Part shown: piece by piece, positions 2,870-49,023 of the stretch
Numbering within the stretch: the first letter of the stretch is position 1
Layout of the letters: the number at the start of each line of letters is the position of its first letter
Notes under the pieces: generated by a model
Database searches by the model: none
Seen by the model: the letters and a program-made list of their open reading frames with translations, nothing else
What the model was told of the DNA's origin: nothing
Program-made: the position numbers and the translations under genes
Source: Mucilaginibacter sp.
GTDB lineage: Bacteria > Bacteroidota > Bacteroidia > Sphingobacteriales > Sphingobacteriaceae
Direction of reading: 5' to 3'
DNA: 64,000 bases
Assembly: GCF_028288225.1 (NCBI RefSeq)
Contig: NZ_JAQBOC010000018.1
Span: 1 to 64,000, forward strand

Positions 2870-2950
2870 ACTCTGCACAGGACAATCAAGGAACCTCAAT
2901 GTTTGGGGAAGGATACCGCCGCATGCATCGTGGTTACTTAGCAGGCGGGG

Positions 2951-2997
2951 CACTAGTAGCCCACCTCTTTTGGCTTGCCCGGATACTAGCGCCAGAA
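2951..2997 (+). repeat. Structured repeat, left copy flanking the nuclease-STAND locus
   Basis: The core CCACCTCTTTTGGC and the edge GCGCCAGA are shared, in opposite orientation, with 8903-8949. A stem CTAGTA (2953-2958) / TACTAG (2984-2989) encloses the core. In the other copy the same stem positions read CGAGAA/TTCTCG, so two base pairs have changed in a compensating way. The copy ends 8 bases before the 3' end of the 1299-residue gene. Confidence 0.6.
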
Positions 2998-3005
2998 TAA
3001 GGTGC

Positions 3006-6000
3006 TTATAAAGAAATCATTTCAAAAAGCTTTTCAACGAACTCCTCTTTACTATGCATCTCTTTTCCTTCGACAATGTCCAATGACCATTGAAGAAATG
3101 CCATGTCGGTTCCATTTTCGGGAATCATTCTAACCCTATCTAAAATCAGTGTTGAATATTTGTCCTCAAGGTCAACTAACCAAGATAACTCAACTGGCGA
3201 ATGCTGATCCAACCTTGCCCGAGATTCAGTCAAGCGCCATAGATCATAAATGATCGTTGTATAGACGGCCTTAACGTCATTTAGTGATGTCTTGGTAAAT
3301 TTGAGTTCCGGTAAAAAGAGCAGCGACTCTTCGTCCGGTAGAATTGGAATCGGCATCACGATATCCAAACCCGGTTCCGTGCTGACTTCCTCGATATAGT
3401 CTTTGGAAAATCTAAGGCCAGACCGTACAGTATCATTGTCAACAAAAAACACACTGTAAAAGTGAATATCCAAAACTTTAAGCGGCTTGAGTAATAAGCT
3501 AAATCTCAAAAGTTCGTAGCCATTGGTATGATCCAAATTTGCAACGCCGAACGTCGCAAAGGTTAATGTATCAGTTTCTTTAAGTTGTGTCGGCAGGTAA
3601 AACACCAGATCAGTTGACGAGGCTATTTCCTTAAGTATTTGTTTAACCCTATTCAACTTACGGTCATGAAAACTATCCCACCATTCGAAAACGGCATTTT
3701 TTCCGACCGCCTTAGGCTGCTGTGATTCTATTGGTTCATGGTGAAGAAAATACATGACTGTTTGATAGAGCCTGTTGTACCAATTTGCTTCATTGCTTAA
3801 AAGCTCTGAATTGTCAAAGTACTGAAAAGTAAGTTTTTCAATAGTGCTAAAAGCAACTTGCATCTTTTCGAGGTCGAAGTAAACTGCTTTCAAATTGATG
3901 GTGCCAATATTTCGGTCATTATCCTTTAAGGGATTAACTATATTCTGAAATTGGCTATTAAGATTTGAAAGATGTACGAGCCAACTATCGATAATTTTTT
4001 GGTCAGCCTCGTAAGTTTTTATATCAAATACTTTTGTTTTATAGCTTGGGAAAGGCTTTCTGACCGTTAAAAGAGCCGATAACTTTTCCCGTTGCTTGAT
4101 CATCGGTTCGATGGTCGCAAGTTGTTTCTTCCTATTTCTTTCGATCAGTGAATCTAGGAAACGAACGAAAGGTTTAACCGTTTCAATCGCTTCGGCCCTT
4201 ATATCTATGATGCCTTTTTGCCAATCAAAAACTGATGATGCCGCATAATTTTTAAGGATCGTTGATGACCAGATTACGTTAAGATTTACATCAAAAAGAC
4301 TTCCAATAGATTCGAGCGTCATTCCCTTGTTTGAGTTCATCCGTACGATGGATACCAATTGCTCGTTGGGAAACGGCAATAAAATAGCTTGGGTATTGTA
4401 TTTATCGTAGTAAGGCAGGAAAGATGAGATCGTTCTAATCCGGTCAACACTAAGGTCATTTGCCTGGTTAATCTCATCATCACGAAGGAAATAATTGATC
4501 GTTATTTCATCCCCCTCTTCCATGATCGTTATCGAATCTGTTTTAACTTTTAAAAGACTAATGATTTCAGATTTATTTTTATTTATAAAATCACGATACT
4601 TTTCAGGATTCTCAATCCTACAATAAACAAATAGGTCTTTGCTTTCCGTAACTGGCAAATCCACCAGCTGGCGAATCAGGTGTTCCCGCGTGGTTTCTAT
4701 TTTCAAATGGAATGTCAGTTCTAATTTGTTAAACCACTTGTACAAGAACTCCAGGCCTTCATAACTAACGATTGGTGCACTTCTTGACGGCAAAGCCAGG
4801 CTTAAGGCAGAACCAAATTGGGAAACCCCTGTGTCTTTCAATGTATATTCAGGGAGTTTTTCAGCGATCTCGGCAAGTTTGCGAAAATTCTGCCCGCCAT
4901 CATCGCCAAGCATTTCTCCGAATTTTTGCAGCGTTTTTAAATTTGCGAAAGGAATTGAGTCATAAACGAAGATCTCAATCCCTCCCCCGAACTGAGCTTG
5001 GTCAAAAAAAGACTTATTTTTCAACCAATATGTTTGCGGTTCACCATGAAGAATGCCATCAAAGGCGGCGGCCATATCAGCAAAGGACCCGTTGATCAAC
5101 AGACCTGCCAGTTCTTTGTAAAATGCAGGCCTTTCGGAGTCCTTAAGCATACCTGGTGCATTAGCAAAAAAGTCGTATTTATCCTCCCCAAGTAATGTGT
5201 AGACCACCATCAAAGTATCTGCAATAGATACGAAATCATGTAGGGCATTTTTTATGTGCTCCGATCTGACGGGATGTAAACCCTCTACATATTGTTGGTC
5301 AAAACGAATGAAATACTCGCTTTCCAATTCCTGGAAAATCGCACCGCGATCCTGTTCAAACCGTATCGTTTTATTAATATATGATATCAGTGTTTTGGTT
5401 TCTACCTTAAGGTTAAGGCAATCAGCGACGGCTACGATTCGCAGTATCTCCAATTTAGCCGCAGCGCTGCCCTGCCGGGTAAGCTCTTTCAACTGCTGCT
5501 TGATACGGTCTTCGATCATCTGGCCACGGGTCAACAGGTAGGTGTATTCAATCAGCAACCCGTGGTCTTGTACCTGCTCCCATACAGGTTGCCAGTTTAG
5601 TGAACCTGTATATAGTTTGTTTTTTTGTTTAAGCTGTTGATATATCTCTTTGGCCTCGGATTGGGACAATTGGATGTCTATTATTTGAAGACCGATCCTT
5701 GATATGTCCGCTCCGTACCGGTACCAATCTTCATATCTTGAAGTGATCAATAATTTTACGGGGAGGTCTGCTATTTTCTCTGCAAGAACTGACCAATAAG
5801 AAATTGTGCTATCTAATCCGTCAATAACGATTAACGGTTGCTCTCCGATGACAATCCTCGCCGTCAAAAATTCCTTGATAGCGTTTACTTGTTCCCAGTT
5901 CACGCATTGGTATAACTGGTAAATTTTATACTGTTTTGAAAGATCAAACCCCACCTGCCATGCTAATGTTGACTTACCTTGCCCGCTCGATGATCGGATC

Positions 6001-6905
6001 ACAACTGCATCGGTTTCATTCAGTTTGGTATTGATCTGTTGTTCCCAGCCTTTTCGTCGTACAGGCAACTGGTCGGCTATGTGTACCGGTTTGGCGGCCT
6101 TCCCTTCAAAATAATCATCATTAGACTTTCCTGTTGTCTGGTAAATTACCGGGGCGAGCCAATTGTGTCGCCAGGCAAGATTTACCGGGGCTTTGGAAAA
6201 TGAATCCGTAACCGTTATCAGTAACTGCTGGATATCCGTTCTGAAAATTTTTGAACGCCCCTTAGAGCGGGTAAAGGCAAAGTAAAATAGCGCTTTAAAG
6301 TACTGGTCTTCGGCACCGACATTTACATTCCAGTTTTTCAATAGTGATAACCGTATCTTTGAAAGAATATCGTTGAGATTATGTTTTTCGTAAGAGATGC
6401 GACTTAGGAACCTTGCAAAATCGATATGCCTGTATCGTTCTCCCAAGCTGTTTAATTTTTCTGCCCAAAAAGCAAATGCGCCACCAGTTATTTTCCCGGA
6501 GATCAGTGCATGAAGGTTTCCGTCAGAGATCTTCATATTATAAACTAACCTGAAATTGGCCGTCGGTTCCAAAGCATATACTTCAAGGAAATTTTGCAGG
6601 ACACCAAGTGTCCAAAATGTCCCTGCATTCAGCGGATTCTGTGACGATTTTAACTGTATATATTCTGCCTCTCTTGCATCGGGTTTACGCTCTGAAACAA
6701 CATCAAGATCTTCCAGCCCTTCCAGATGAACGTATTTGTCGCCACTGTCGGCATTAAGCTTATCTAAAAGGATTAATACTGCATAGGCGATCTGAAACTC
6801 TGTACCCCTAAAATTGACAGCACCACCGGATCTTTTGTGTTCGATCTGTTGCAAGTAAGAGGCGAGTATTTGTTGAGTGGTAGTTGATTCAGGCGGTAAA
6901 TTCAT
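3006..6905 (-). CDS. Cap4/DUF4297-like nuclease fused to STAND NTPase (Avs-like candidate)
   Basis: A 1299-residue multidomain protein. The N-terminal 100 or so residues carry a PD-(D/E)XK pattern as in Cap4/DUF4297 nucleases: FRGTEFQIAYAV (32-43), E62, EDLD (65-68) and YIQLKSS with Q84 and K86. A STAND-type NTPase follows, with Walker A SSSGQGKST near 305-313, Walker B LIVIDGLD near 360, and LLITSRYEDW near 386. The long C-terminal half (about 600-1299) has no repeat I can name and would be the sensor by analogy with Avs proteins. Divergent from the DUF4209 gene: the two ATG codons are separated by only 23 bases. The architecture resembles Avs2/Avs3-like antiphage proteins; family membership and any phage trigger are inference. 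Confidence 0.65.
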   Translation of the reverse strand: MNLPPESTTTQQILASYLQQIEHKRSGGAVNFRGTEFQIAYAVLILLDKLNADSGDKYVHLEGLEDLDVVSERKPDAREAEYIQLKSSQNPLNAGTFWTLGVLQNFLEVYALEPTANFRLVYNMKISDGNLHALISGKITGGAFAFWAEKLNSLGERYRHIDFARFLSRISYEKHNLNDILSKIRLSLLKNWNVNVGAEDQYFKALFYFAFTRSKGRSKIFRTDIQQLLITVTDSFSKAPVNLAWRHNWLAPVIYQTTGKSNDDYFEGKAAKPVHIADQLPVRRKGWEQQINTKLNETDAVVIRSSSGQGKSTLAWQVGFDLSKQYKIYQLYQCVNWEQVNAIKEFLTARIVIGEQPLIVIDGLDSTISYWSVLAEKIADLPVKLLITSRYEDWYRYGADISRIGLQIIDIQLSQSEAKEIYQQLKQKNKLYTGSLNWQPVWEQVQDHGLLIEYTYLLTRGQMIEDRIKQQLKELTRQGSAAAKLEILRIVAVADCLNLKVETKTLISYINKTIRFEQDRGAIFQELESEYFIRFDQQYVEGLHPVRSEHIKNALHDFVSIADTLMVVYTLLGEDKYDFFANAPGMLKDSERPAFYKELAGLLINGSFADMAAAFDGILHGEPQTYWLKNKSFFDQAQFGGGIEIFVYDSIPFANLKTLQKFGEMLGDDGGQNFRKLAEIAEKLPEYTLKDTGVSQFGSALSLALPSRSAPIVSYEGLEFLYKWFNKLELTFHLKIETTREHLIRQLVDLPVTESKDLFVYCRIENPEKYRDFINKNKSEIISLLKVKTDSITIMEEGDEITINYFLRDDEINQANDLSVDRIRTISSFLPYYDKYNTQAILLPFPNEQLVSIVRMNSNKGMTLESIGSLFDVNLNVIWSSTILKNYAASSVFDWQKGIIDIRAEAIETVKPFVRFLDSLIERNRKKQLATIEPMIKQREKLSALLTVRKPFPSYKTKVFDIKTYEADQKIIDSWLVHLSNLNSQFQNIVNPLKDNDRNIGTINLKAVYFDLEKMQVAFSTIEKLTFQYFDNSELLSNEANWYNRLYQTVMYFLHHEPIESQQPKAVGKNAVFEWWDSFHDRKLNRVKQILKEIASSTDLVFYLPTQLKETDTLTFATFGVANLDHTNGYELLRFSLLLKPLKVLDIHFYSVFFVDNDTVRSGLRFSKDYIEEVSTEPGLDIVMPIPILPDEESLLFLPELKFTKTSLNDVKAVYTTIIYDLWRLTESRARLDQHSPVELSWLVDLEDKYSTLILDRVRMIPENGTDMAFLQWSLDIVEGKEMHSKEEFVEKLFEMISL

Positions 6906-6928
6906 ATTAATTTAGGATTTTAAATGGT

Positions 6929-8824
6929 ATGCAATATAATTCATTGTCACCAGTAAACAGTACATCGGTATTTATTGATTATTTTTATCACAAATATTTA
7001 AGCCTATTGGATACCGACATTTCATTATCAGAGCGAACGTTTTACGCCCTTGTAGATCAGGAAGAGATGCCTTACGCTGCTACTGATGCCATTGATCTAG
7101 CCAATGAGGTAGTTATCCTTTATAAGGACGAACCATTATTTGATCGAACGCCGATGGCGGTAGAGTTTTTTTGCTTTATGTCATTTCCCGATGACGAAGG
7201 GCATTTTAATAGCTTAACAGCTGCCGGAATAGAGCGACTATCGTCAGATGCCGCCGCTGTTTACTTAAAAAAGAGAATTACTCAAAGCCCCAACCTTTAC
7301 TCGATCAGCCGATACGGACATATTCTGTGGGAGTTTCACAAGTCATTCCAACATGTTAAAATAGCAATAGAATCCTACCTGCAGGTTGCAAGATCTTGTC
7401 TTTCAAAGCTTTCTAATGATGAAAAGTTTTTCAGCCCTTTTAAACAATCGTTTCAACAGGCATTGATATTAAGCCTGAATTTAAAATATAAATCAGGCGT
7501 TTCTGGCGCTACCAACATTTTAGAGAAGTTTATCCAAACGAGAACTGAGTTATGGATGAAAGAAATGATCATAGACCATTTACTTTCAAAAGCAAAAAAG
7601 ATCTTAAAGGCAGTCAACTTATTACCTTTTGTGGAAGAAGTCAAGGGCAATCCTGTGCTGAAGGGATATTTCCAGGCGAAAGAGATCCATCTTTGTGCCA
7701 TCAAGGTGGCCAACTACTATAAAACAGGCGATGCACTGCTACTTTATGAACAGTTGGGCGATAAAATAAGGGCTGATGCCAATGGCAGAAAAGACGATAA
7801 GACCGGACTGGTCGTCATCCCACACCTTGCCGAAGCAATGAAATATTACCGGTTCGCAAAGGCTGATGAAAAATTTAAGGCGACGGCCAATGAGCTTGCT
7901 TTGTTTAAGAAAAAAAGAAAACCGTTTGCCCGGGTCAGAATTCCCTTGAGTGATACGTTAGGGGTACAGCTATTCGCGATGAACGAGCGAATTATCAAAT
8001 GGATCAGCGCTGTACCGAATGAAGCGCGACTTGTTGTTTTAGGAAGTGACAATAGCTTTCTTCCCAGGTTCGGGACATCAGCGGCGGTACATAGCAGTAG
8101 ATCGTTAACGTCATTGTTTACGGTTTATCAATTCGATAAGAACCAAAATTCAAAACTTTTAAAAGACCAGGCTAAGCCGAAAAACGACGCCGATACGACG
8201 TATCACGCTCAATTTCAATTAACTGCCAAGCAAATTATAGTTACCATTATGCATGAACTCATTAAGAGCCGGCAGTTAACCGTCGAAAAGATGGACGAGC
8301 ATTTCAGAAATAATTGGATAGGAATCATTCATCAGGCGGAAACAGACGGAAAATCAACCCCGATATGTTTTTATGACTACATACGCCCAGCATTAATTCA
8401 TTATTTGGAACAAGTCACTAAATCTTTAACGAATTCAGGTGAGGCCGACTTTATTGTGTGTATCGATGCCATGGTCATCAGGTTGGAGTTTCTTTTGAGA
8501 AGTTTATTTAAACTCAAGGAAATCTCAACGACCACGATTGACACTGCGTCAAGCGAGTTACGGGAGATCTATTTGCCGGAATTGCTTGAACGGTCGAAAG
8601 AACTTAAGGTATTAGCTGATCAGGAGTATCAGGTATTAAATTACTTGTATACGAAAAGCGGGCTTGACCTGCGCAACAATATTGCACATGGCTATTTTGA
8701 TATAAAATCTTATACCATCGAACTGGCCGATATGGTTTTCTGGTCTATAGTAAAACTTGGAGAACATCTTTTTCCAGAGTTCAATTTAGACAAACAAGAC
8801 CATACAAACGCAAAAAAAATGTAG
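6929..8824 (+). CDS. DUF4209 (HEPN-type) protein, putative partner of the STAND nuclease
   Basis: A 631-residue soluble, mostly helical protein. Near the C-terminus it contains DLRNNIAHGYF (about residues 580-590), matching the RNxxxHG signature of DUF4209, a HEPN-related domain. Residues 510-600 form the likely domain. The N-terminal 500 residues are helical with no motif I can name. HEPN domains in defence loci are often RNases, and the conserved Arg and His fit that, but catalysis is unproven here. It is transcribed away from the nuclease-STAND gene, and inverted repeat copies lie just beyond both outer ends, so the pair behaves as a cassette. The start ATG at 6929 leaves almost no room for two independent promoters. 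Confidence 0.65.
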   Translation: MQYNSLSPVNSTSVFIDYFYHKYLSLLDTDISLSERTFYALVDQEEMPYAATDAIDLANEVVILYKDEPLFDRTPMAVEFFCFMSFPDDEGHFNSLTAAGIERLSSDAAAVYLKKRITQSPNLYSISRYGHILWEFHKSFQHVKIAIESYLQVARSCLSKLSNDEKFFSPFKQSFQQALILSLNLKYKSGVSGATNILEKFIQTRTELWMKEMIIDHLLSKAKKILKAVNLLPFVEEVKGNPVLKGYFQAKEIHLCAIKVANYYKTGDALLLYEQLGDKIRADANGRKDDKTGLVVIPHLAEAMKYYRFAKADEKFKATANELALFKKKRKPFARVRIPLSDTLGVQLFAMNERIIKWISAVPNEARLVVLGSDNSFLPRFGTSAAVHSSRSLTSLFTVYQFDKNQNSKLLKDQAKPKNDADTTYHAQFQLTAKQIIVTIMHELIKSRQLTVEKMDEHFRNNWIGIIHQAETDGKSTPICFYDYIRPALIHYLEQVTKSLTNSGEADFIVCIDAMVIRLEFLLRSLFKLKEISTTTIDTASSELREIYLPELLERSKELKVLADQEYQVLNYLYTKSGLDLRNNIAHGYFDIKSYTIELADMVFWSIVKLGEHLFPEFNLDKQDHTNAKKM

Positions 8825-9035
8825 GAGTTCAGTTTGCAGAACCCAACTACACCACAAACCTGCTGCAATACCTTGTTCAACCGGTGTAGTTGAACCCCCT
8901 CCTCTGGCGCGAGAATGCAGCCACGGCCAAAAGAGGTGGAGTTCTCGTGTACCGCTGACAGGTAGCAAGCTTTACTAACAAGCGTGCTACTTTATTTATT
9001 ACCACTACCTCCTCTGCTCCCCCTTGCCGGAATAA
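8825..9035. repeat. Palindrome-rich spacer after the DUF4209 gene
   Basis: Several hairpins lie here: GTTCAAC/GTTGAAC (about 8875-8895), the structured element at 8903-8949, and GTAGCAAGCTT/AAGCGTGCTAC (8962-8990, one mismatch). They may act together as transcription end structures or as a mosaic repeat. No gene is seen. Confidence 0.5.
8903..8949 (-). repeat. Structured repeat, right copy flanking the nuclease-STAND locus
   Basis: On the minus strand it shares the core CCACCTCTTTTGGC and the edge GCGCCAGA with 2951-2997. Its enclosing stem is CGAGAA (8910-8915) / TTCTCG (8942-8947). It is the inverted partner of the left copy and lies 78 bases after the DUF4209 stop. Confidence 0.6.
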
Positions 9036-19856: not shown

Positions 19857-22800
19857 ATGAGTACTAAAGAACCCGAGCTGTTTGACTATTTCAAATCTGT
19901 TAAAGATGTAAAATCACCAGCAACGCATGCCGCACATCAATTAGACTCACTAATACCTAATCTGTCACTTTGTATTAAACTATTGATTTTATTTATCAAT
20001 AGTACGGATAGCGATTCTTCTTTGGAAAGACTACCAGATGATTTCAATCAATATTGTAATGTGATTTTATCAGACAACCTTTCGGGTTATCCAGTGGCTA
20101 TAGAAGGTTTGTCTCAAAAATTCGAAGCCTTTTTAAAGAAGGTTGGTTACCTCCGTTATAAGAATACTATTTATTGGAGCGGAGATAGTAGTCATATAGG
20201 GATAAAGGAAACAACACTTAATAATCTTTGTGACGGTATACTTGTACCACAAAAAGGTATGCCTAAGGGCACTGGAGCTAGGCACTTGCCACATCCTTTA
20301 TTTGCTTTTACTGGATTTAATCATGATTTAGTAGAATTCCTAAGAAAGGAACTAAGAAATAAAGTACATCAGGCTCCCAATATTCCTAAAAGAGATCTTA
20401 TTACTTATGCCGAATATGTATTGTTAGCATATCTATTCGTTGTTCAAGACAATTTATCATTACTATCAGAAAACCTTTCGATCGAAAGTAAGCATAATTC
20501 CAAGCTTGCAACTTATTTTTCAAAATGGCAAAATCGGTATGTGCAAACGATCTTTATTGAAAAAGACACTAATGATCTGGTTGAGCTATCCCCTCATATT
20601 ATTGAAACGGATTGGGATGTAAACAACCAAGCGCAATCATTTGTGCCCAAACAGGGCAAAATTCTAGATATTCTGGGTGATCTTAAACAGTTTGTAATAA
20701 TTGGCGATCCAGGATTAGGAAAAACTACTACATTGCAATTTCTCGGCTATCACTTAGCACGGCAGGATAAAAATTTGCCTTTATATTTTCCAATAAAAAA
20801 CTTTGTACCTAAAAGAGACTTACTTTCACAAGTTGCAACATATGCGGAATTAAGTCAAGATGTTATAAGTTCTTACAGAGAATCAGGATTCCTAGCTTTT
20901 TTATTCGATGGCATTAATGAGGTTCTTATTTCGGCTGATCAAGTTGAGCTCAAAAATCAGATTAAAAGTCTCCTTAAAGATTACAAGCATAGTTGTTTCA
21001 TATTCACAACTAGACCATCAGCATATAAAAACGATTTCAATATACCTGTATTCGAACTTCAAGCGTTAAACGACATAGAAATCATAGAGTTCATTCAGAA
21101 AAACCATCCCGAAAAGGCTACAACCCTGGTTACAGAACTCGAAAAACAACCAAAATTAAAAGAATTATGCCGAAATCCATTGATTTTGGTAATACTGTGC
21201 TCGCTTATTCAGCAGGCACCTTTTACCATTCCGTCTAATAAAGGTCTATTGCTTAAAAACTTTATTGATGCTTTGTTAAAACGAGAGCAGCATAAAAATC
21301 AACTATTTGACTGCTATAAGTATTTTAATTATCTCCTTGCACTTGGCTTACAAACCAGGATTGACGAACGCATTAGTTTCGACACGCACTATGCAATAAC
21401 CATTATATCGAAAGCTGTAGAACAAATTGACCCATCGGCGGATCGCTCAAAAATATTAATAGATCTAATTGATATTGGCTTGCTTACCAAAAACAATAAT
21501 CAGATCAGCTTTACTCACGAATTATACCAAGAATATTTCGCTGCTGAAGGAATATTACAAAAAAATCTACCAGAATCCGAATTGCAAGCATTTGAAGCTT
21601 CGACAAATTGGGAACAACCTCTTATTTTATACTCAGGATTAGTTGAACGTTACGACGAATTCATCGGAAGCCTTTCCGAACGCAACCCGATTTTGGCATT
21701 AAAATGCTTTGAAAGTTCAATTAAAAACGATGATGCCATACTTGCTGTCATTACTAAAAATGCTTTCATTAACTCTCAGAAAGTAGATAATATAAAAACA
21801 GCATCAAACGGGTTGATCACTTTACTTCGCCTTGGAGAAGCAAAATTATTCAACGAGTCGTTGGCATCAAGTATTGGCAAACACGGGGAAATTGTTTTTA
21901 GGTTGTTGGGACAGATATCATCCGTACTCGTCAAAACTATTGACTTTAACTATCTATTTGATTCCATATCAATCGTGGTTAATCTTAATAAGTCTTTTAT
22001 CCCATCGATTATTCGAAATCTTGGCAGGCGTAATCCTGAGGAAATCGTTAAAATCAAAGACCAATTATTTGATTTGTTTAAAAAGGATTTTTTTACCTCA
22101 ATTAAACCATCTTTTTTATATCGTTTCTTTCGTCTAATAGATCTTACTAGCGCCGAAAAAGTTGGTAAATCAAATTTGGAAAACTATTGTATTAAGCTTT
22201 GTAAAAATGACAATGCCCATTCTATTGAAAGTACAAATACAGCATGGAACCTCGTATCCCAATTTAAACTTTTTGATGATTCTAAATTTGTAACAAAGGT
22301 TATAGGTATATTGGTGAATAATCGTAAAGCAAATCATGGCTTTATTAAGAAGCTTGCTGATCATTCGCCCAATCAATTAGATAATATTATTATCGCTTGT
22401 CTTGACTCTAAAAACATTACCTGTCATTGCGTTGGAATATACTTGAGTATAGCTAACGGAAAAGAAGCAGCATTTAAGGAAGCTCTAGAGAAGCTATTTA
22501 TTTACCGTAACGAAGCTATTAAGAAAAGAATAGTCTCGTCCTATAATGACAATATGCTTGCTGAGAGAATAAGCGTGATCTTTAATCACGAAGTTATAAG
22601 ACGCTTACTAATTGAATTTGAAAAGAACAAGGCGACCGTTTACAAATACAAAGTAAAGGATATAAAAGACCAAATGATTGTTATTCGAATTAGAGGTCTT
22701 CATGTCCAAGGAAAACTCTTAGAGGCCGAAAGAATTACTAAAAACATTAAAAAAGATCAAGCACTAACTGTAAAACTTGCATTTATAGATCCATTTGCGC

Positions 22801-23207
22801 AGGTTGTATATTTTACGGAAAAGGAAGATCCGTTTGAAAATTATTATAGTATATGTCAGTTACCTGCGCCAGGCTTGGAGGTTCGTGCCAAAATTTCTTA
22901 CATTAAAAACGATGAAGCAGAAGCTTTTATTCACGACAAATATATAGGCATAATAAAAGATAGTCGATTGAAAGACCAAAAACTCCTTGGAAAAAAAGTT
23001 TCTGCAATAATTATCAAACTCGAAGAAGGACGATATATCTTAGAATTAGCGCCACAAAAAGTTTCGAAATTCAAACCCGCTATAGAAAAAATTCCTCAAA
23101 TAAATAAAAGTCAAAAAATCACATCAAAGTTTTCGGGCAAGTCAAGACGAGAATCAGATTTTGCATTTCTGTTGAAAAATGCGTTGAAGAGTGATAATGA
23201 AGATTAA
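19857..23207 (+). CDS. NACHT-domain STAND NTPase (bNACHT-like)
   Basis: A 1116-residue protein. NACHT motifs: Walker A GDPGLGKTT (283-291), Walker B AFLFDGINEV (about 347-356), FIFTTRPSAY (about 380-389), and the helical LKELCRNPLILVILCSL. The N-terminal 270 residues are helical and include LRNKVHQ (166-172), HEPN-like but one residue shorter than the usual RNxxxH. After the NACHT come helical repeats (550-920). The C-terminal 190 residues look beta-rich, possibly two small OB/S1-like folds. Bacterial NACHT proteins of this layout have been shown to protect against phages; defence here is inference. AT-rich by eye; single gene. Confidence 0.7.
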   Translation: MSTKEPELFDYFKSVKDVKSPATHAAHQLDSLIPNLSLCIKLLILFINSTDSDSSLERLPDDFNQYCNVILSDNLSGYPVAIEGLSQKFEAFLKKVGYLRYKNTIYWSGDSSHIGIKETTLNNLCDGILVPQKGMPKGTGARHLPHPLFAFTGFNHDLVEFLRKELRNKVHQAPNIPKRDLITYAEYVLLAYLFVVQDNLSLLSENLSIESKHNSKLATYFSKWQNRYVQTIFIEKDTNDLVELSPHIIETDWDVNNQAQSFVPKQGKILDILGDLKQFVIIGDPGLGKTTTLQFLGYHLARQDKNLPLYFPIKNFVPKRDLLSQVATYAELSQDVISSYRESGFLAFLFDGINEVLISADQVELKNQIKSLLKDYKHSCFIFTTRPSAYKNDFNIPVFELQALNDIEIIEFIQKNHPEKATTLVTELEKQPKLKELCRNPLILVILCSLIQQAPFTIPSNKGLLLKNFIDALLKREQHKNQLFDCYKYFNYLLALGLQTRIDERISFDTHYAITIISKAVEQIDPSADRSKILIDLIDIGLLTKNNNQISFTHELYQEYFAAEGILQKNLPESELQAFEASTNWEQPLILYSGLVERYDEFIGSLSERNPILALKCFESSIKNDDAILAVITKNAFINSQKVDNIKTASNGLITLLRLGEAKLFNESLASSIGKHGEIVFRLLGQISSVLVKTIDFNYLFDSISIVVNLNKSFIPSIIRNLGRRNPEEIVKIKDQLFDLFKKDFFTSIKPSFLYRFFRLIDLTSAEKVGKSNLENYCIKLCKNDNAHSIESTNTAWNLVSQFKLFDDSKFVTKVIGILVNNRKANHGFIKKLADHSPNQLDNIIIACLDSKNITCHCVGIYLSIANGKEAAFKEALEKLFIYRNEAIKKRIVSSYNDNMLAERISVIFNHEVIRRLLIEFEKNKATVYKYKVKDIKDQMIVIRIRGLHVQGKLLEAERITKNIKKDQALTVKLAFIDPFAQVVYFTEKEDPFENYYSICQLPAPGLEVRAKISYIKNDEAEAFIHDKYIGIIKDSRLKDQKLLGKKVSAIIIKLEEGRYILELAPQKVSKFKPAIEKIPQINKSQKITSKFSGKSRRESDFAFLLKNALKSDNED

Positions 23208-26361: not shown

Positions 26362-27012
26362 TTAACCAGCAACTTTGATTTTTACATCGTAGTAAAAATC
26401 ATGCAAACTTTTATTTCTGCTCAAATATTTGGTCAAACGTTTTTCATCATTTGTGTTAAACTCTTTACTAAACTCAAAATAAAGCTGATAATCTGGCTTC
26501 ATCTTTCCTTGCCTGTAACCTTTTTTAAATTCAATTCTCTTTTTTGCATTGGCCGTTTTTGAAGAATCACGGTCCTCTAGTAGAGTCAATATCCATGCAT
26601 CCATTTCTTCTACGGAAATTGCATACAAGAATGTCGAACTTAAATCTTCACCAATCCATTCATTAATTTTATTAATAATGGATGATCTTATTTCCTTGCA
26701 ATAATTTGGCCCTTTTTCTGGTTGTACAATACCATAATCTGCACTTTCCGCAGTATCAAAATGAATTGCTATAAAATCGCTTTGTTCTTGCAGGAAAAAA
26801 TCATCGATAAAAATGCGATTCTTACATTCATCTTTGACTGAATTCCATCCTCCATGAATCTCTCCTCTTCCAGCAGCTAAATCCGTTGCGTCATATTTAT
26901 ATTGAGGTAGTAAAGGTTGGAAATCACTTTCATCCATGCCTGTTATTCCAGAAATAATATTTACTATAACAGCTCTATCAGAATGTCCTTCTGCTATTAT
27001 GCCAATTCTCAT
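26362..27012 (-). CDS. DUF4276 / TOPRIM-like putative effector
   Basis: A 216-residue protein, last gene of a three-gene operon. It opens MRIGIIAEGHSDRAVI, where E8 fits the TOPRIM glutamate. FIAIHFDTAESADYG supplies acidic residues where the DxD is expected, and YAISVEEMDAWILTLLED matches the E-x-x-AW helix typical of DUF4276 and the related RloB/AriB (DUF4435) groups. AriB is the TOPRIM nuclease effector of PARIS, held by an ATPase. By position and motif this protein is a candidate effector for the ATPase upstream, from which it is separated by three bases. Nuclease activity is inference. Confidence 0.65.
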   Translation of the reverse strand: MRIGIIAEGHSDRAVIVNIISGITGMDESDFQPLLPQYKYDATDLAAGRGEIHGGWNSVKDECKNRIFIDDFFLQEQSDFIAIHFDTAESADYGIVQPEKGPNYCKEIRSSIINKINEWIGEDLSSTFLYAISVEEMDAWILTLLEDRDSSKTANAKKRIEFKKGYRQGKMKPDYQLYFEFSKEFNTNDEKRLTKYLSRNKSLHDFYYDVKIKVAG

Positions 27013-27015
27013 AAT

Positions 27016-28659
27016 TTAAAAGTTATCCGGGACACCTCCTAAAGACCCTCTCATCCACATTTCTGAAATTTTTAATGGCTTATCTTTTAAATCTTCTTTA
27101 AACTTCACGCGCCTGGTTTTTGTATGCCCTTCACTATTTCTATAAACGACAAATAATCTTTGTTCATCATCAAATAAATTTAGGCCATCTAAAACAGCTG
27201 GGTTGTGGGTAGTTATAATGGCTTGTTTTCCCCTTTCTTTTGATAAAATAGCCAATTCCATTATCAATCGTTGACATAACCTCGGATTTAATGCGGTTTC
27301 AATATTATCAATTCCGAACAGTTTTGGGGTTTTATTACTGATAAAAAGTGATAAATAAAACAACACATGTAATATCCCCTCATTGCTATTTTCAGCAGAG
27401 AGAACATTATTCTTTTTCAGCATGTATTTATCTGAAAAATATAGCGTTGAGGTACTCCTACCTGGTTTAAGCCCTAAAAGCTTATTTTTGTCATCTTTAT
27501 CACTTATTATTCCGTCCAACCACTTAAAAAACATTTCACTCTTTTTTAAATAATCCCTTTCGAAAGAGTTAAAACTTGAAATCAATAAATCTAACCCTTC
27601 TCCATTCAGCCCCAATGGAGTTTTCCTACTATCTGACGGGGTGATTCCTCTCAGAGACTTAGTATTCAAATCGAAAATCCCGTATTCTGAAAGAATCTCT
27701 ATATATCTATCAGACTTATTGGAAATTTTATATTCGGATTTCTCAAAAACCTCTTTGAATGCAGTTTCAAAATCAACGTTGATTCCACTTTTTTCATAAT
27801 CATAAATAATATTTCTAAAGCGAACTAAAAAGTCGCTTTCAACCTCCGGTAATACACCATCGATCCACTTAGTATAAATTTCATTTTTCTTTTCAGGATA
27901 AATTGAAGAATGACTTGTTGTTAGTCCTTGATTAGTATTAAACCCAACCTGGATATTAATTCTATCACTTTGTGTAGCTCCCAAAAAAGAACTCAGCATT
28001 AAATCAGGCCTAGCAATTCTGATACCCCTACTATAAAGTCCATCAAAATTTAAATCATTAGCTTTAGCGGCTCCAATAACCGCTATTGCTTCTAAAATAT
28101 TCGATTTCCCACAACCATTTTCACCAATAAATACATTAAATCTTCCGAGTTCAATTTTATCATTTAATATGGACTTATAGTTACTAATTTCAATAGAGCG
28201 TAATTGTGTAGTATCTATTTTATTATCAGGTGTTTGATTCTGCTTAAATTCTTGAACTGCATCGTTCCAATCTTTGCTGTTAAATTTCAAAATAGCCTTC
28301 AATGCTATATCAGATAAAGCATAATGTGTTTTTGAACTTGTCGTGCTTAATTCAGGATCGTCAGGATTTAAAACAGCGATGGTATTTTCTACAAAAGGTT
28401 TTAAAGCAAGTTTTCTAAATGATTCTCTCGAATTAGGCTTATAATCAGCTTTGTAATATTCATTAGCAAATTCCATTATATCTTTGGAAATAATCATGCT
28501 TCTTTTATGGGCATTTTTCCATTGGCTTTCGGGTTTTAAATTACTTAATGCAAGTAATGTTAACGCACAAATGCGATTTTGCAAATGTTTTTCCAATCCT
28601 AAATCAGATAAAATTTGTTGTGCTTCTGAAATTTTAGATTCAATATTTTCTTTACTCAT
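27016..28659 (-). CDS. BsuBI/PstI-type N-terminal domain fused to SMC/OLD-like ATPase
   Basis: A 547-residue fusion. Residues 1-130 resemble the N-terminal domain of BsuBI/PstI-family restriction enzymes (LQNRICALTLLALSNLKPE, PNSRESFRKLALKPFV, VLNPDDPEL). From about 155 comes an ABC/SMC-like ATPase of the AAA_21 type: ISNYKSI, Walker A GENGCGKSN near 178-186, Walker-B-like KLFGIDNIETALNP, and the H-loop segment AIITTHNPAVLDGL near 478. The usual PD-(D/E)XK nuclease of PstI-type enzymes is absent and the ATPase stands in its place. Its ATG overlaps the methylase stop by one base (TAATG). The name by function is open: an ATPase sensor or loader linked to the methylase target is my inference. 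Confidence 0.7.
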   Translation of the reverse strand: MSKENIESKISEAQQILSDLGLEKHLQNRICALTLLALSNLKPESQWKNAHKRSMIISKDIMEFANEYYKADYKPNSRESFRKLALKPFVENTIAVLNPDDPELSTTSSKTHYALSDIALKAILKFNSKDWNDAVQEFKQNQTPDNKIDTTQLRSIEISNYKSILNDKIELGRFNVFIGENGCGKSNILEAIAVIGAAKANDLNFDGLYSRGIRIARPDLMLSSFLGATQSDRINIQVGFNTNQGLTTSHSSIYPEKKNEIYTKWIDGVLPEVESDFLVRFRNIIYDYEKSGINVDFETAFKEVFEKSEYKISNKSDRYIEILSEYGIFDLNTKSLRGITPSDSRKTPLGLNGEGLDLLISSFNSFERDYLKKSEMFFKWLDGIISDKDDKNKLLGLKPGRSTSTLYFSDKYMLKKNNVLSAENSNEGILHVLFYLSLFISNKTPKLFGIDNIETALNPRLCQRLIMELAILSKERGKQAIITTHNPAVLDGLNLFDDEQRLFVVYRNSEGHTKTRRVKFKEDLKDKPLKISEMWMRGSLGGVPDNF

Positions 28660-30275
28660 TATAACTTGATCTTTAGCTGCCTTGAAATAACTCCATCAAT
28701 AGATGTTTGGGTTATTTCGTTTTCATTTAAAACTTCTCTGCCAATCTCAATAATTTTTTTAATATTCGGCAATTTAATATCTCTTAATTCTGTGGCACTT
28801 ACATTTATATTACCATTAAATGTACGGAAATATCTATCGAAGAGTGTGCTATTTAAAAGAGCTGATAATCCAATCGTTTCTTCTATCGTTAACGATCCTT
28901 GTTTTTTATATATATAGTTTAAATGATTTTCAATTCCTATTTTATCAAATTCGTTTAGAGTGGTACTTAAATATGGCGCAGCAATCAATTTCCTTGAATC
29001 ATCTTTTGCGCTGAATCTTCTTAACAAAACGTAATTTAAATTGGGAACCAAAAGCTTATTTGAATCTTTATTGGATAGAAAATACTGTCTTTTCGGTTTA
29101 CCCTTTACTCCGTTTTCCGTAGGCCAATTATACTCCATGTATTTGATATTATGAAGCCAAAAAAGTGGAACAGAGTTGCCCACAGGATCTTTCAATATGA
29201 ATTCTTGGCTTCTAAAATCTACAATTTTCCCCGTAGAAACTTCCCAACCAAATTTATGTAATGTATTATCCCATTTTCTAAATACGTCAATTACTTTATC
29301 ATCTTCATTATTAGATGGTAAATGGAGTGTTTTTTGATAGCTATTTATATCTATAAGGGTTTCTGCTGAATAAAACATCCACGTACGTTTGTCTAAGTCA
29401 GACATTCCGGAGGAAGACGAAATAATTATTGAATCTTTTGAAATTTGATCAAATGGCAAATGTAATTGATTAGGAGAAGAATTCAGTTTAGCAGATGCAG
29501 CAATTATAAGGGTTTCTTGTAATACTTTATCTCGTTTAAATGTGGAAGATCTAGATTCAAATAGATGAATATTTTTAATATCCACCTGGGAGAAAAATTG
29601 TTCACGAAACATTCTAAAATAATTTCCGGAACAGAAACTTCTTGGAGTTATAAAAATCAGTTTTCCACCCGGTTTTAATAGTTTTGCCGCTATAAGAAGA
29701 AAAATAGAATAAATATTCGTCTGTCCATAAATAACAGTTTGAGCTGCTATCGAACGAGGATCATCCTTTGGCAATTTAAAATATGGAGGATTAGAAATGA
29801 TAAGATCATATTTTTCGTGAATATCTTCCCTGCCTGATAGAATATGTGAATTATGAAGTATGAAATCATTTTTACAAAGAAAGTAATTCAATTCTACTCC
29901 TTTTGAATACAACCATAATCGAAGATAATTAAAACACATTTCAGCAAGTGGAAGTAACTTAACATCTGTTTCAAAGGCAACAAGTTCAATTGTCTTTATT
30001 TGCGGGTTAATGAAAATAAAATCTTCTGCCATGGCAGCAGAAAGAATCCCTATTCCACAACCAGGATCTAATATTTTAACTATTTCGCCAGTACTAACCG
30101 CAAACTCTCCTATAAATTTTGCAATAGGAAGTGGCGTAAAAAATTGACCCGCTTTTTTTTTATGTTCGTCAGTTACAGTTGAGGCATAAATTATCCCTAA
30201 ACGATCGGCAAAAGCAGAGGGTAATTCATTCTCAAATGGAAAAATCTCAAAAGATTCAGTCTCTAAACTTGACAT
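28659..30275 (-). CDS. N6-adenine DNA methyltransferase (BsuBI/PstI/Eco57I-like)
   Basis: A 538-residue gamma-type methylase, first gene of the operon. KKAGQFFTPLPIAKFI is the pre-motif, KILDPGCGIGILSAAM motif I for AdoMet, and LIISNPPYFKLP motif IV (NPPY), which indicates N6-adenine methylation. The C-terminal 250 residues form the target recognition part. Among known systems the M.PstI/M.BsuBI type fits best, and the neighbour's N-terminal domain supports this. ATG 30275 is chosen; the frame opens earlier at a TTG. By eye the operon is AT-richer than the core genes to the right. Recognition sequence cannot be read from the sequence, though relatives methylate CTGCAG. Confidence 0.8.
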   Translation of the reverse strand: MSSLETESFEIFPFENELPSAFADRLGIIYASTVTDEHKKKAGQFFTPLPIAKFIGEFAVSTGEIVKILDPGCGIGILSAAMAEDFIFINPQIKTIELVAFETDVKLLPLAEMCFNYLRLWLYSKGVELNYFLCKNDFILHNSHILSGREDIHEKYDLIISNPPYFKLPKDDPRSIAAQTVIYGQTNIYSIFLLIAAKLLKPGGKLIFITPRSFCSGNYFRMFREQFFSQVDIKNIHLFESRSSTFKRDKVLQETLIIAASAKLNSSPNQLHLPFDQISKDSIIISSSSGMSDLDKRTWMFYSAETLIDINSYQKTLHLPSNNEDDKVIDVFRKWDNTLHKFGWEVSTGKIVDFRSQEFILKDPVGNSVPLFWLHNIKYMEYNWPTENGVKGKPKRQYFLSNKDSNKLLVPNLNYVLLRRFSAKDDSRKLIAAPYLSTTLNEFDKIGIENHLNYIYKKQGSLTIEETIGLSALLNSTLFDRYFRTFNGNINVSATELRDIKLPNIKKIIEIGREVLNENEITQTSIDGVISRQLKIKL

Positions 30276-30376
30276 TTTTGTAAGATAAACGAATATTTGT
30301 AAAACTTTCAAGCCTTTTGCTTAATTGAAAAATATTTTTTTTCTATATCTAATTTTATTGATTATTTAAGACAACA

Positions 30377-30402: not shown

Positions 30403-30420
30403 CTTGTTCGATTCTAAATG

Positions 30421-30505
30421 TACTCAGAGCGGGAATCGAACCCGCACTCCGTTTACGGGAACAGGATTTTAAGTCCTGCGTGTCTACCAGTTCCACCATC
30501 TGAGC
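30421..30505 (-). tRNA. tRNA-Leu (anticodon UAA)
   Basis: An 85-base class II tRNA. Acceptor GCTCAGA pairs with TCTGAGT (one G-U pair), discriminator A. The anticodon stem CAGGA/TCCTG holds loop CTTAAAA, so the anticodon is TAA. The T-arm GCGGGTTCGATTCCCGC is perfect. A long variable arm is present as expected for Leu. No CCA is encoded. Confidence 0.95.
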
Positions 30506-30563
30506 ATGGTTCCTTGTCTACCAGTTTTCGTCACCTGAGCAGGTGATTAAACCTTTTAACAAT

Positions 30564-30588
30564 AAATCCCTTCTTGTGGAAGGGATTT
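30564..30588. terminator. Perfect 10-bp hairpin between the two tRNA genes
   Basis: AAATCCCTTC (30564-30573) pairs with GAAGGGATTT (30579-30588) around five bases. It begins one base after the 3' end of tRNA-Gly on the minus strand and could act as its terminator or processing signal. Confidence 0.5.
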
Positions 30589-30589
30589 G

Positions 30590-30662
<73 letters not shown>

Positions 30663-34640: not shown

Positions 34641-35864
34641 ACCAGCTTGTTCAGTCTTTTTAAAGCTTCTTACAGCTATAAAAGCACTTATCAGCATTAA
34701 CGCTGAGGCAAGGAGATATGCACCTCCCGGAAAATAAACAATCGAGTCTTTGTGAGTGAAATATGAAAATACATAACCAAAAATGAGCGGCCCTATAATC
34801 ACGCTTAAACTATTAATAATTGTTATTGCGCCTTGCAGCTCACCTTGTTCTTTTTGAGAAACCTTACCTGTTGTAAGCCCTTGCAGTGCCGGGCCGGAAA
34901 TCCCGCCCAAACAATAAGGGATCATAAATACGTACATCATCCAGCCCTGGCTTGCAAAAGCTATTAGCGTTAATCCAATTGCATAAAATACCAACCCGGC
35001 TACAATATTTTTTTCCTGTCCGAATTTTGGTATCGTATACCTGATAAGCCCTCCTTGTATTCCTACCAGAAGTAGGCCTATAACAATACCGAGTGTACCA
35101 ACACTGCTTAATGTCCAATTGAATTTTTCGAATAAGTAGAATGACAGCAGGTATTCTACAGCTTTTTGGCCGATGTAAACCAATGTTATAGCACCTAACA
35201 AACCGGTTAAAGCCGGCTGTTTAGTAAAAACTCTTACCAGGGCCCCAACCGGATTGGCGCGTTTCCATTCAAACTTTCTCCTGTTTTTAAGCGGTAATGA
35301 TTCCGGTAAAACAAACAAACCATAAAGCCCGTTAAAAAATGCCAGCCCCGCCGCCGCTATGAAAGGGATTTTTATATCAATAGCGCCAAGGTATGCGCCT
35401 AAAGCAATACCTATTATAAACCCAAATCCAGATGCAGCCCCTACCAGTCCAAAATTTGAGGCTCTTTTATCGCCTGTACTAACGTCTGCTATATAAGCCG
35501 TAGCTGTAGCGTTACTTGCACCTGATATCCCGGCAATAAACCGGCCTACAAATAGCCATGCAATAGTTGGCGCAAAAGCCATAAACAGATAATCGATACT
35601 AAAACCGAAGAGAGAAATCAATAAAACAGGTCTTCGGCCATACCTGTCGCTAAGGTTACCCAATATCGATGCAAAAACTAATTGCATTGATGCATAGACA
35701 AAAGTTAACCAGCCACTATATTGTGATGCTATACTTATATCAATATGACCTAAGGTTTGCAATAACTTGGGCATTACGGGAATTATGATGCCTAAACCCA
35801 AAACATCAATAAAGATGGTTATAAAGATAAATCCCAACGCCGCAGATTGTTTAGGTTTTGCCAT
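34608..35864 (-). CDS. Tet/TCR-type MFS drug transporter, paralogue 1
   Basis: A 418-residue 12-helix transporter of the major facilitator superfamily. [19 protein letters not shown] is the usual TM1, LGNLSDRYGRRPVLL the motif A loop between TM2 and TM3, and RFIAGISGASNATATAYIAD the motif C-like region of TetA-type antiporters. Probable role: proton-driven export of a small drug or metabolite. The last 15 or so residues (GVKSKVFSRKS region) come from the repeat at 34529-34640. The paralogue at 36121 is close in sequence, so a local duplication is likely. Confidence 0.85.
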   Translation of the reverse strand: MAKPKQSAALGFIFITIFIDVLGLGIIIPVMPKLLQTLGHIDISIASQYSGWLTFVYASMQLVFASILGNLSDRYGRRPVLLISLFGFSIDYLFMAFAPTIAWLFVGRFIAGISGASNATATAYIADVSTGDKRASNFGLVGAASGFGFIIGIALGAYLGAIDIKIPFIAAAGLAFFNGLYGLFVLPESLPLKNRRKFEWKRANPVGALVRVFTKQPALTGLLGAITLVYIGQKAVEYLLSFYLFEKFNWTLSSVGTLGIVIGLLLVGIQGGLIRYTIPKFGQEKNIVAGLVFYAIGLTLIAFASQGWMMYVFMIPYCLGGISGPALQGLTTGKVSQKEQGELQGAITIINSLSVIIGPLIFGYVFSYFTHKDSIVYFPGGAYLLASALMLISAFIAVRSFKKTEQAGVKSKVFSRKS

Positions 35865-35951
35865 ATATTATTTCATAGTGAAAAGGCCCGATGAGTATAA
35901 AAGTTTTAGTTAGCATAAAATAAATATAGTATTAGAGATTAGAAATTAGAA

Positions 35952-36072
35952 GCTAGTGTCGTGTCAATCATGAATTGACGCTTAGTCTTGAGTCGAAAGT
36001 CTTGAGTTCTAAGTCAGAAAAAGACAAAATTTGACTTAAGACTTGCGACTTAAGACTGTTGACTTAACACTA
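35952..36072. repeat. GTCTTGAGT-family repeat, copy 2
   Basis: Same opening (CTAGTGTCGTGTCAATCATGA) and same order of words as 34529-34640, with a few substitutions. Its arms pair imperfectly (GTCTTGAGT... and ...ACTTAAGAC). It lies between the two MFS genes. Confidence 0.7.
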
Positions 36073-36120
36073 GAGATCAGAGATTAGCTAATGTGAAAGT
36101 TGAAATGTCAATTTGGGATA

Positions 36121-37404
36121 TTAGGTAACTTTTTCTTTCGGACTTCCGGACTTCCGGACTAAATTTAAACTCTGATCTCTGGCCTCTGATCTCTTTTCCC
36201 CCCTAAAACTCCGTACAGCTAATATCGCCCTTAAAAGCATCAATATAGCACCTATTGCAAATGGCGCACCCGGGAATTGAAAAAACGGATTAGGCTTTGT
36301 AAAATAATAAAATGATTCAGTCATCAACAGCGGGCCGAATATAGAACTAATGCTTATTAAGCTTGTAAGGCCGCCCTGCAGTTCGCCCTGTTCGTTTGCA
36401 GGTACGCTATTACTCATATATCCTTGTATTGCAGGGCCCGCTATTCCCCCTAAGCAATAAGGAATCAGGATAGCAAACATCATCCAACCCTTAACAGCAA
36501 AAGCAAAAAAAGCAAGACCTGAAGCGTACAAAAGCAGGCCAATCCAAATGCTTCGTTCGGTTCCCAGTTTAGGCAATATTATCCTGATCAAACCTCCCTG
36601 CACAGAAGCCACCATCAAGCCCACAAAGCCAAGCGAGTAACCCACCATATCCTCATTCCAGTTAAATTTTTTGATTGTGTAATAAGTCCATACGCTTTGC
36701 ACGGCCTGTGCTGCAAAATAGATCAGGAACATGCATAATGCTAAACCTATTACAGATTTATATTTTTTTAGCTGGATTACCGAGCCGAAAGGATTTGCTC
36801 TTTTAATATCAAACGACCGCCTGTTCTCCGGCGCTAATGATTCGGGTAAGATAAAATAGCCATAAATTGCATTAAGTAATGCCAGGGCGGCGGCAGCGAT
36901 AAACGGATAATGAACATCATATTTTCCGAGAATACCGCCCAGAGCCGGGCCTATAATAAACCCAAGGCCGAATGCAACACCAACTAATCCGAAATTGGCT
37001 GCGCGTTTTTCAGGGTCGCTTATATCAGCAATATAGGCAGATGCTGTTGTAAAGCTGGCACCTGTTATACCCGCAACAATGCGACCCACAAACAACCAGG
37101 CTATAGTAGGCGCAAAGGCAGAAAATAAATAATCAACACTAAAACCCAAAAGAGAACATAGTAATACCGGCCTGCGGCCAAATTTATCACTAAGGTTACC
37201 TATAACCGGCGCAAATATAAATTGCATGCCCGCATAAGCGGCAGTAAGCCATCCGCCATACCATGAAGCATCGCTTACATCTCCATGAATTAAATGTTCA
37301 ATAAGCTTTGGTATAACTGGTATAATAATTCCCAGCCCGATAACATCAATTAGTAAAGTGGCAAAAATAAATCCAAGCGCTGCCTGTTTTTTAGGTTTGT
37401 GCAT
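36121..37404 (-). CDS. Tet/TCR-type MFS drug transporter, paralogue 2
   Basis: A 427-residue paralogue of the gene at 34608. [34 protein letters not shown] and [20 protein letters not shown] match it motif for motif. ATG 37404 is chosen because the frame opens three codons earlier at TTG. The last 30 residues, rich in Lys, Arg and Ser, are encoded by the short repeats GATCTCTGGCCTCTGATC and TCGGACTTCCGGACTTCC, so this gene too has a repeat-derived tail. Confidence 0.85.
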
Positions 37405-44811: not shown

Positions 44812-45429
44812 ATGAACTTTTCATCAAGGTTGCTGGAAGATGCTGTAGCTGAATTTGCGAAACTGCCGGGGATAGGCCAAAAAACTGCTTTACGGTTGGT
44901 TTTGCACTTGCTTAACCAGGATAAGAGTGACGTAGAAAAGTTTAGTGCGACTATAAGCAAGCTGCGTAACGAGATCCAGTTTTGCAGGGTTTGTTTAAAT
45001 ATTTCCGATCATCCCGTCTGCCAGATCTGCTCTTCCCCAAAACGGGATCATAACCTCATATGTGTAGTCGAAGATACCCGTGATGTTATGGCTATTGAAA
45101 ATACCAACCAGTATAATGGTGTATACCATGTATTGGGTGGCTTAATATCGCCAATGGATGGCGTCGGACCGGCAGACCTTGAAGTAGATTCATTACTTGA
45201 ACGCTTAAAAGAAAATGACGTAAAAGAGATCATTTTTGCCCTTAGCGCTACAATGGAGGGCGATACCACTATTTTTTATTTAGATAAACGTTTAAAATCT
45301 TTTGATATAACCATCTCAACCATAGCTCGTGGCATAGCTTTTGGTGGTGAATTAGAGTACGTAGATGAAATTACCTTGGGCAGATCCATTGTAACACGCA
45401 TTCCGTATGTTAATTCATTGTCAAAGTAA
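44812..45429 (+). CDS. recR: Recombination protein RecR
   Basis: A 205-residue RecR. The helix-hairpin-helix FAKLPGIGQKTALRLVLHLL, the zinc finger CRVCLNISDHPVCQIC, and the TOPRIM part (ICVVEDTRDVMAIENTNQYN, YHVLGGLISPMDGVGP) are complete. RecR works with RecO and RecF to load RecA at gaps. ATG 44812 is chosen; the upstream frame reads through the TCCGGAAGTCC repeat. The next gene starts two bases after the stop. Confidence 0.94.
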   Translation: MNFSSRLLEDAVAEFAKLPGIGQKTALRLVLHLLNQDKSDVEKFSATISKLRNEIQFCRVCLNISDHPVCQICSSPKRDHNLICVVEDTRDVMAIENTNQYNGVYHVLGGLISPMDGVGPADLEVDSLLERLKENDVKEIIFALSATMEGDTTIFYLDKRLKSFDITISTIARGIAFGGELEYVDEITLGRSIVTRIPYVNSLSK

Positions 45430-45431
45430 AT

Positions 45432-46265
45432 ATGAAGCTATCAATAATCGTTGTTAACCGTAACACTTGTATATTGCTAAAGCAAGCAATATATTCTTTA
45501 ATTGATGCTTGTAAAAGCATTGATTATGAATTACTTATAGTCGACAATGCATCTACTGATCATTCATTACAAATGCTTGAGAATAATTTTCCAGATATAA
45601 ATGTTATTGCAAATGACGCCAACCTGGGAATAGCAAAGGCAAACAATCAGGCTATAAAACAGAGTACAGGTGAGTATGTTTTACTGGTCAGTCCGGATAC
45701 AATAACCATCAAAGATTCAATTGAAAAGATGATTGATTTTATGGACGGGCATGCTGATGCAGGTGGCACAGGTATAAGAATGCTTAGTCCGCAGGGTCGT
45801 TTTTTACCGGAGTCTATCCACGGTTTAACAAAAACATGGGGCGCATTTTTAAAACTTATCGGCTTTGCCAGGCATCTTTCTAAAACCCGTTTATATGATC
45901 GCAACCGTAAAGACTGGGTTGAAGAGTTCCAGGTGGCCGAGGTTGATATATTGAATGGCGCTTGCATGATGTTGCGCAGCTCGGCATTAAATGAAACCGG
46001 GATGTTTGATGAGCGCTTCTTTATGTACGGAGCTGATATTGACCTTTCATACAGGTTAAGGTTGGCTGGCTTTAAAAATTACTATTATCCAAAAACATAT
46101 ATCATCAATTTCGAAAACCATCATTTGGCCAAATTTAGCTGGAACTACATTAAGTATTTTTATGGCGCTATGTTTATATTCGCCGTCAAATATTTAATAA
46201 AAATGCCTGACATTAATTTGAAGGGCATACCGCAGTTATTCCCTTCAAATTATGAGGTTAAATAA
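45432..46265 (+). CDS. Family 2 glycosyltransferase
   Basis: A 277-residue GT-A enzyme. LSIIVVNRNTCILL, IVDNASTDHSLQMLE and ANLGIAKANNQAI are the nucleotide-binding part, EYVLLVSPDTI holds the metal site, and NGACMMLRSSALNETGMFDE with MYGADIDLSYRL marks the rhamnosyltransferase-like subgroup. It probably adds a sugar in surface polysaccharide synthesis. The two-base spacing to recR suggests shared transcription, without a functional link. Confidence 0.88.
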   Translation: MKLSIIVVNRNTCILLKQAIYSLIDACKSIDYELLIVDNASTDHSLQMLENNFPDINVIANDANLGIAKANNQAIKQSTGEYVLLVSPDTITIKDSIEKMIDFMDGHADAGGTGIRMLSPQGRFLPESIHGLTKTWGAFLKLIGFARHLSKTRLYDRNRKDWVEEFQVAEVDILNGACMMLRSSALNETGMFDERFFMYGADIDLSYRLRLAGFKNYYYPKTYIINFENHHLAKFSWNYIKYFYGAMFIFAVKYLIKMPDINLKGIPQLFPSNYEVK

Positions 46266-46366
46266 AAAGTTTAACCACTTCTATCATCATAATTACTAAA
46301 TTTTATTAATTAACATTGATGATTAAGTTATACAATCAAAAAAAATAAAATTCTTAAATTTGAGGC

Positions 46367-46585
46367 ATGAAATTAGCGCTTCAATATTTGAGTGATGTAA
46401 ATGGCAACCCAAAAGCCGTCCAATTATCATTAACTGATTGGGAAAAGGTTTTGGCTAAACTTAAAAAGTACGAACAGACATTAAAAATCAAATCGGACTT
46501 AACAGAAGCTTTTAACCAGGTAGCTTTATTGAAAAATTCCAAAGAAAAAAAGCAAACCCTAACTGATTTTCTTAATGAGCTTTAG
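46367..46585 (+). CDS. Antitoxin of a RelE-type pair (putative)
   Basis: A 72-residue small protein. The N-terminal part (YLSDVNGNPKAVQLSLTDW) followed by a helix of charged residues resembles Phd/ RelB-like antitoxins of Bacteroidetes. The reading frame overlaps the toxin gene by 11 bases, as in many type II systems. The role rests mainly on its partner. Confidence 0.65.
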   Translation: MKLALQYLSDVNGNPKAVQLSLTDWEKVLAKLKKYEQTLKIKSDLTEAFNQVALLKNSKEKKQTLTDFLNEL

Positions 46586-46910: not shown

Positions 46911-46924
46911 TACTTCATCAATTC

Positions 46925-47740: not shown

Positions 47741-47763
47741 AAGCATCTGCTAAACCTAATGGT

Positions 47764-48729: not shown

Positions 48730-48772
48730 AATCAGATACATTAGCTTTATGCTTTGTAAAAATATCATTCTG

Positions 48773-48804
48773 CTTGCTTTTAGTAAAAACTATTTCCATA
48801 TTTG
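48773..48804 (+). promoter_or_regulatory. Candidate trp promoter
   Basis: CTTG (48773-48776) and CATATTTG (48797-48804) are separated by 20 bases, close to the Bacteroidetes -33 TTTG / -7 TAnnTTTG consensus with one mismatch in each box. It would start transcription near 48810, almost at the leader ATG, so the leader peptide would be nearly leaderless. An earlier promoter is not excluded. Confidence 0.4.
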
Positions 48805-48812
48805 TGGCACAA

Positions 48813-48931: not shown

Positions 48932-48932
48932 G

Positions 48933-49010: not shown

Positions 49011-49023
49011 GGGTTAGGGGCTT

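Follow-up and report, generated by a model that had tools for sequence, protein, structure and literature searches.

The window analysed here, a stretch of 64,000 nucleotides from Mucilaginibacter sp., begins at a contig end, where our view of the region to the left stops. Near this end lie two intact open reading frames on opposite strands, just as they had first been delimited: on the reverse strand (3006..6905), a gene for a protein of 1299 aa in which a Cap4-type nuclease precedes an nSTAND5 NTPase, and on the forward strand (6929..8824), a gene for a protein of 631 aa which carries a DUF4209 (HEPN) domain and belongs to the PADLOC family PDC-S39. As the divergent start codons are separated by a mere 23 bp (6906..6928), the transcription of each gene is probably influenced by that of the other. 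The promoter of either gene must overlap the 5' end of its neighbor, unless one of the starts is internal, and a promoter-like match of the Bacteroidota type was found for the forward gene at 6884-6915, by consensus match alone. Residues 1-32 of the DUF4209 reading frame are modelled with a pLDDT below 50 and are missing in aligned relatives, for which reasons the true start may lie downstream of the annotated one, and the gap would then widen.

The pair is flanked exactly by a 30-nt inverted repeat, the arms of which (2945-2974 and 8926-8955) lie just 3' of both genes. These arms fall within two copies (2945-2997, reverse strand; 8903-8955, forward strand) of a hairpin repeat of about GCGCGAGTATGCAGCGCAGGCCAAAAGAGGTGGCGTACTCGTGC. 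The core of this repeat is present in four copies in this genome, the others being at G000:C9:34095 and G000:C15:48124, and it recurs, with unrelated genes as neighbors, in 9 further genomes of the genus; the hairpin often lies just 3' of genes. The same hairpin with an invariant loop can be drawn for eleven copies, and 6 of its pairs are preserved by compensatory changes in the two arms of the stem. We considered whether inverted repeats might delimit a mobile cassette here and set this aside: because the core adjoins unrelated genes elsewhere, the flanking repeat is a dispersed hairpin, and does not show joint mobility of the two genes. A common insertion site was likewise discarded, given that around the pair isolated genes alone match two other genomes (G067 and G020), with no extended synteny.

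Architecture and distribution of the nuclease-STAND protein

The N-terminal PD-(D/E)XK nuclease core occupies residues ~15-101 of the 1299-aa protein (6603..6863, reverse strand). The catalytic residues named in the initial annotation, E62, D66/D68 and Q84-x-K86, are present as read, accompanied by E65, and are conserved in relatives. In an alignment with 24 relatives, E62, E65, D66, D68, Q84 and K86 show no variation, and the same holds for the Walker A residues of the NTPase; in an alignment of 32 more diverse relatives E62, E65, D66, Q84 and K86 are again invariant, with D68 conserved in at least 90%. The PADLOC profile for LmuA, which is of Cap4 type, matches residues 16-100 of the window protein (E=2e-6), this being its sole PADLOC match, and is matched by 12 of the 32 relatives. 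The Pfam Cap4_nuclease model (PF14130) also matches 12 of the 32 (best 2.1e-8), and gives no match to the window protein at E<=1; a weak profile match to anti-bacteriophage protein A (AbpA; PDB 8zue) covers residues 19-94 (E=0.037). Since the profile matches, the 8zue match and the conserved residues agree, we regard this as a Cap4-type nuclease fused to a STAND module. The same kind of N-terminal nuclease domain is found in CBASS Cap4, Lamassu LmuA, HerA-DUF4297 and AbpA, from all of which the window protein differs in its fusion to STAND. Tests for the corresponding systems were negative, in that SAVED and CD-NTase (CBASS), SMC-like LmuB (Lamassu) and HerA were not detected in the 1299-aa chain or in the neighboring proteins scanned, namely an AAA_25/HTH protein, a hypothetical protein and the DUF4209 protein.

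The NTPase core follows within the same chain at residues 264-400 (5706..6116, reverse strand; Pfam PF25199), in keeping with the first reading of STAND motifs downstream of the nuclease. It contains a Walker A motif, SSSGQGKST (305-313), a Walker B-like stretch, PLIVIDGLD (357-365), and TSRYEDW (388-394). The nSTAND5 model matches the window protein at E=1.4e-6, under Pfam's own cut-off, with nSTAND3 the second-best Pfam STAND model (2e-4), and all 32 relatives match nSTAND5. A literature search on nSTAND5 found nothing, and neither the STAND part nor DUF4209 had a relative in a sequence search of the PDB. Residues 560-1299 (740 residues; 3009..5228, reverse strand) make up a presumed sensor region, helical with mixed alpha/beta stretches, which AlphaFold2 models with a mean pLDDT of 87.4.

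A chain composed of a nuclease, a STAND NTPase and a large C-terminal region is the tripartite plan described for Avs (AVAST) proteins (PMC12931631). The window protein shares this plan with Avs1-4, and by analogy would share with them the cleavage of DNA upon sensing a phage protein, which might suggest a true Avs receptor of terminase or portal, similar to Avs3 or Avs4. Among the PADLOC 2.0.0 profiles, however, no Avs profile was matched by the window protein at E<=1 or by any of the 32 members at E<=0.01, and the best STAND model is nSTAND5. Solved Avs3 and Avs4 structures are expected in the PDB structure library that we searched, and yet the confident C-terminal model matched no structure there at E<=0.001, the best match having E=0.19. 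The Avs label first attached to the protein, along with the Avs-type sensor sought in its C-terminal region, is consequently not retained, and a receptor of this kind has a small chance of being the correct identification. The Cap4-nuclease/nSTAND5 receptors merit attention in their own right, as a family that is patchily distributed in many phyla and lacks a PADLOC Avs match. What triggers them is a testable question, given a predicted C-terminal region which is confident and has no solved counterpart.

A scan of genome contigs recovered 70 loci related to the STAND protein, spread over many phyla in a patchy distribution, and their neighborhoods are varied. In one, GajA and GajB of Gabija lie beside the STAND relative (profile-confirmed), and gene pairs related to these by blastp occur in 4 more loci. 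Restriction-modification (R-M) enzymes or a helicase are found near the STAND relative in two loci, and a TPR protein in another, with a similar upstream gene in one further locus; serine recombinases are nearby in several. The neighbors were clustered to look for a constant partner of the STAND gene, and the idea of such a partner was rejected, as the commonest cluster, of AAA/OLD-like ATPases, accounts for 10 loci and none forms a majority. That no partner is common to most loci is as expected for an autonomous protein, and the varied surroundings fit a gene that is sufficient by itself and passes from one defence island to another. Viral contigs yielded one STAND relative, accompanied by a serine recombinase and not by DUF4209; as they held no DUF4209 relatives, the pair was not found there, and phage records gave no DUF4209 and one weak STAND-domain match. 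Separately, one relative (L016; G034:C1, 6477-10960) adjoins an IS21-type IstA/IstB pair and is reduced to 687 codons, which makes it a naturally broken copy.

The DUF4209 protein and its genomic contexts

The DUF4209 domain of the 631-aa protein (8483..8755, forward strand) matches PF13910 at E=5.4e-8, exceeding the gathering cut-off, and follows an N-terminal part made of helical repeats. The RNNIAHG motif, which had been placed near residue 585, lies at residues 582-588, and within it the HEPN catalytic motif R582-x4-H587 (8672-8689, forward strand) occupies invariant columns: R582, N583, A586 and H587 do not vary in an alignment with 15 relatives. The earlier assignment of this neighbor to DUF4209, as a HEPN-related family, is thus borne out. 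Judged from the alignments, conservation of the motifs in both proteins is well beyond chance. The PADLOC PDC-S39 profiles match the 631-aa protein (E=2e-14 and 2.3e-13) as well as 10 of 10 relatives scanned. A Foldseek search with the DUF4209 model was uninformative, returning helical-repeat proteins only, with E values from ~0.005 upwards. DUF4209 corresponds to the HEPN family of C6orf70 type, which has been reported from R-M-related operons and is predicted to have RNase activity (PMC3710099). With the HEPN motif both intact and invariant, an enzymatic role is favored, and by family analogy the domain probably cleaves RNA.

Relatives of the DUF4209 gene occur in type I R-M operons with HsdR (three loci), in a locus that holds a relative of the 415-449-aa gene from these same operons, and beside an OLD-like AAA ATPase, an Eco57I-type enzyme and a BREX cluster (one locus each). 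In five others, two small genes come after the DUF4209 gene and encode proteins of ~161-194 aa and ~116-171 aa. The gene in the window shares the PDC-S39 match and the HEPN R-x4-H motif with this C6orf70/ERMARD family, and differs from other members in adjoining a nuclease-STAND gene rather than an R-M operon or small-gene partners. Such movement among unrelated defence contexts is more in keeping with an accessory effector than with a partner dedicated to one system. The five loci with small genes may represent a three-gene unit, the first small protein of which weakly resembles PDC-M32A. At a further locus (L021, 9866-12986), two close DUF4209-like genes of 309 aa (truncated) and 546 aa are oppositely oriented, with a 533-aa gene alongside.

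In the initial annotation the two genes were joined in one defence unit with two effectors, in which the STAND protein would sense phage and cut DNA, and the HEPN protein would serve as a dedicated second effector acting on RNA, or as a regulator. The start codons 23 bp apart and the intact catalytic motifs of both proteins are consistent with such a unit, and recurrence of the adjacency in other genomes was chosen beforehand as its test. The search drew on one genome per species and found no recurrence. DUF4209 was present in none of the 70 STAND loci within the DNA examined, which extended at least 3 kb on both flanks in 50 of them. It was equally absent from the 25 whole genomes carrying the closest STAND relatives (E<=1e-5), although the same DUF4209 model found all 7 known carriers used as a positive control; conversely, the STAND family was detected in none of 19 other DUF4209-bearing genomes (E<=1e-20). 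The only other carrier of both families is a plasmid of Hymenobacter tibetensis, on which DUF4209 occupies 35394-37256 and the STAND gene 45399-49376. That both occur in the same island there might be taken in favor of a functional unit, but 8.1 kb separates the two genes, an interval that includes a type IIL MmeI restriction enzyme among other genes. With DUF4209 found in 12 genomes out of 346 from the phylum, one co-occurrence is about what independence would give. We accordingly consider a two-effector unit unlikely.

Such a unit may instead have formed recently, with a single phage signal leading to cleavage of both DNA and RNA through a receptor of the widespread nSTAND5 family, the sensor fold of which has no solved relative, and with the two genes coupled via the 23-bp start region; this we hold to be quite unlikely. 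That the DUF4209 protein acts as an inhibitor or antitoxin restraining the STAND nuclease, the alternative originally raised, is very improbable, as close divergent spacing is all that speaks for it, the STAND relatives in the loci and genomes examined all lack DUF4209 and yet persist, and the invariant HEPN catalytic residues, unneeded by an inhibitor, point to an enzyme.

Proposed functions of the two genes, and two other loci

The explanation that we favor, and judge fairly likely, is that two separately acquired anti-phage genes, one encoding a self-contained NLR-like receptor and the other a HEPN defence protein, have become adjacent by chance. Each gene is probably anti-phage, and their pairing is probably accidental. 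The original proposal of a two-effector defence unit is hence preserved in part, in that a defence role is reasonable to suppose for each gene alone, whereas their coupling finds no recurrence from either side.

For the self-contained receptor, knowledge of related families leads us to infer the following course. The C-terminal region of the 1299-aa protein would bind a phage-derived trigger, upon which the nSTAND5 NTPase would bind nucleotide and oligomerize. The Cap4-type nuclease domains thereby brought together may then cut double-stranded DNA, and this would either clear the phage or kill the infected cell. HEPN proteins have been described as backup effectors in defence operons and BREX-related loci (PMC12839542). 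By the same reasoning, the DUF4209 HEPN domain may serve as a backup or accessory effector that cleaves RNA upon the failure or activation of a different defence.

Two further loci were noted elsewhere in the window. A 1116-aa NACHT protein (19857-23207, forward strand), whose profile matches include no recognized effector domain, weakly resembles the antiphage protein EruA over a short stretch (E=2.7e-6). On the reverse strand, a cluster at 26362-30311 comprises an Eco57I/N6-type methylase, an HTH-ATPase fusion protein and a PDC-M31B-like gene, in that order. In the fusion protein, the HTH of a BsuBI/PstI restriction enzyme is joined to an OLD-like AAA ATPase (PDC-M31A), which replaces the nuclease part. 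This cluster adjoins the tRNA-Leu and tRNA-Gly genes at 30420-30662.
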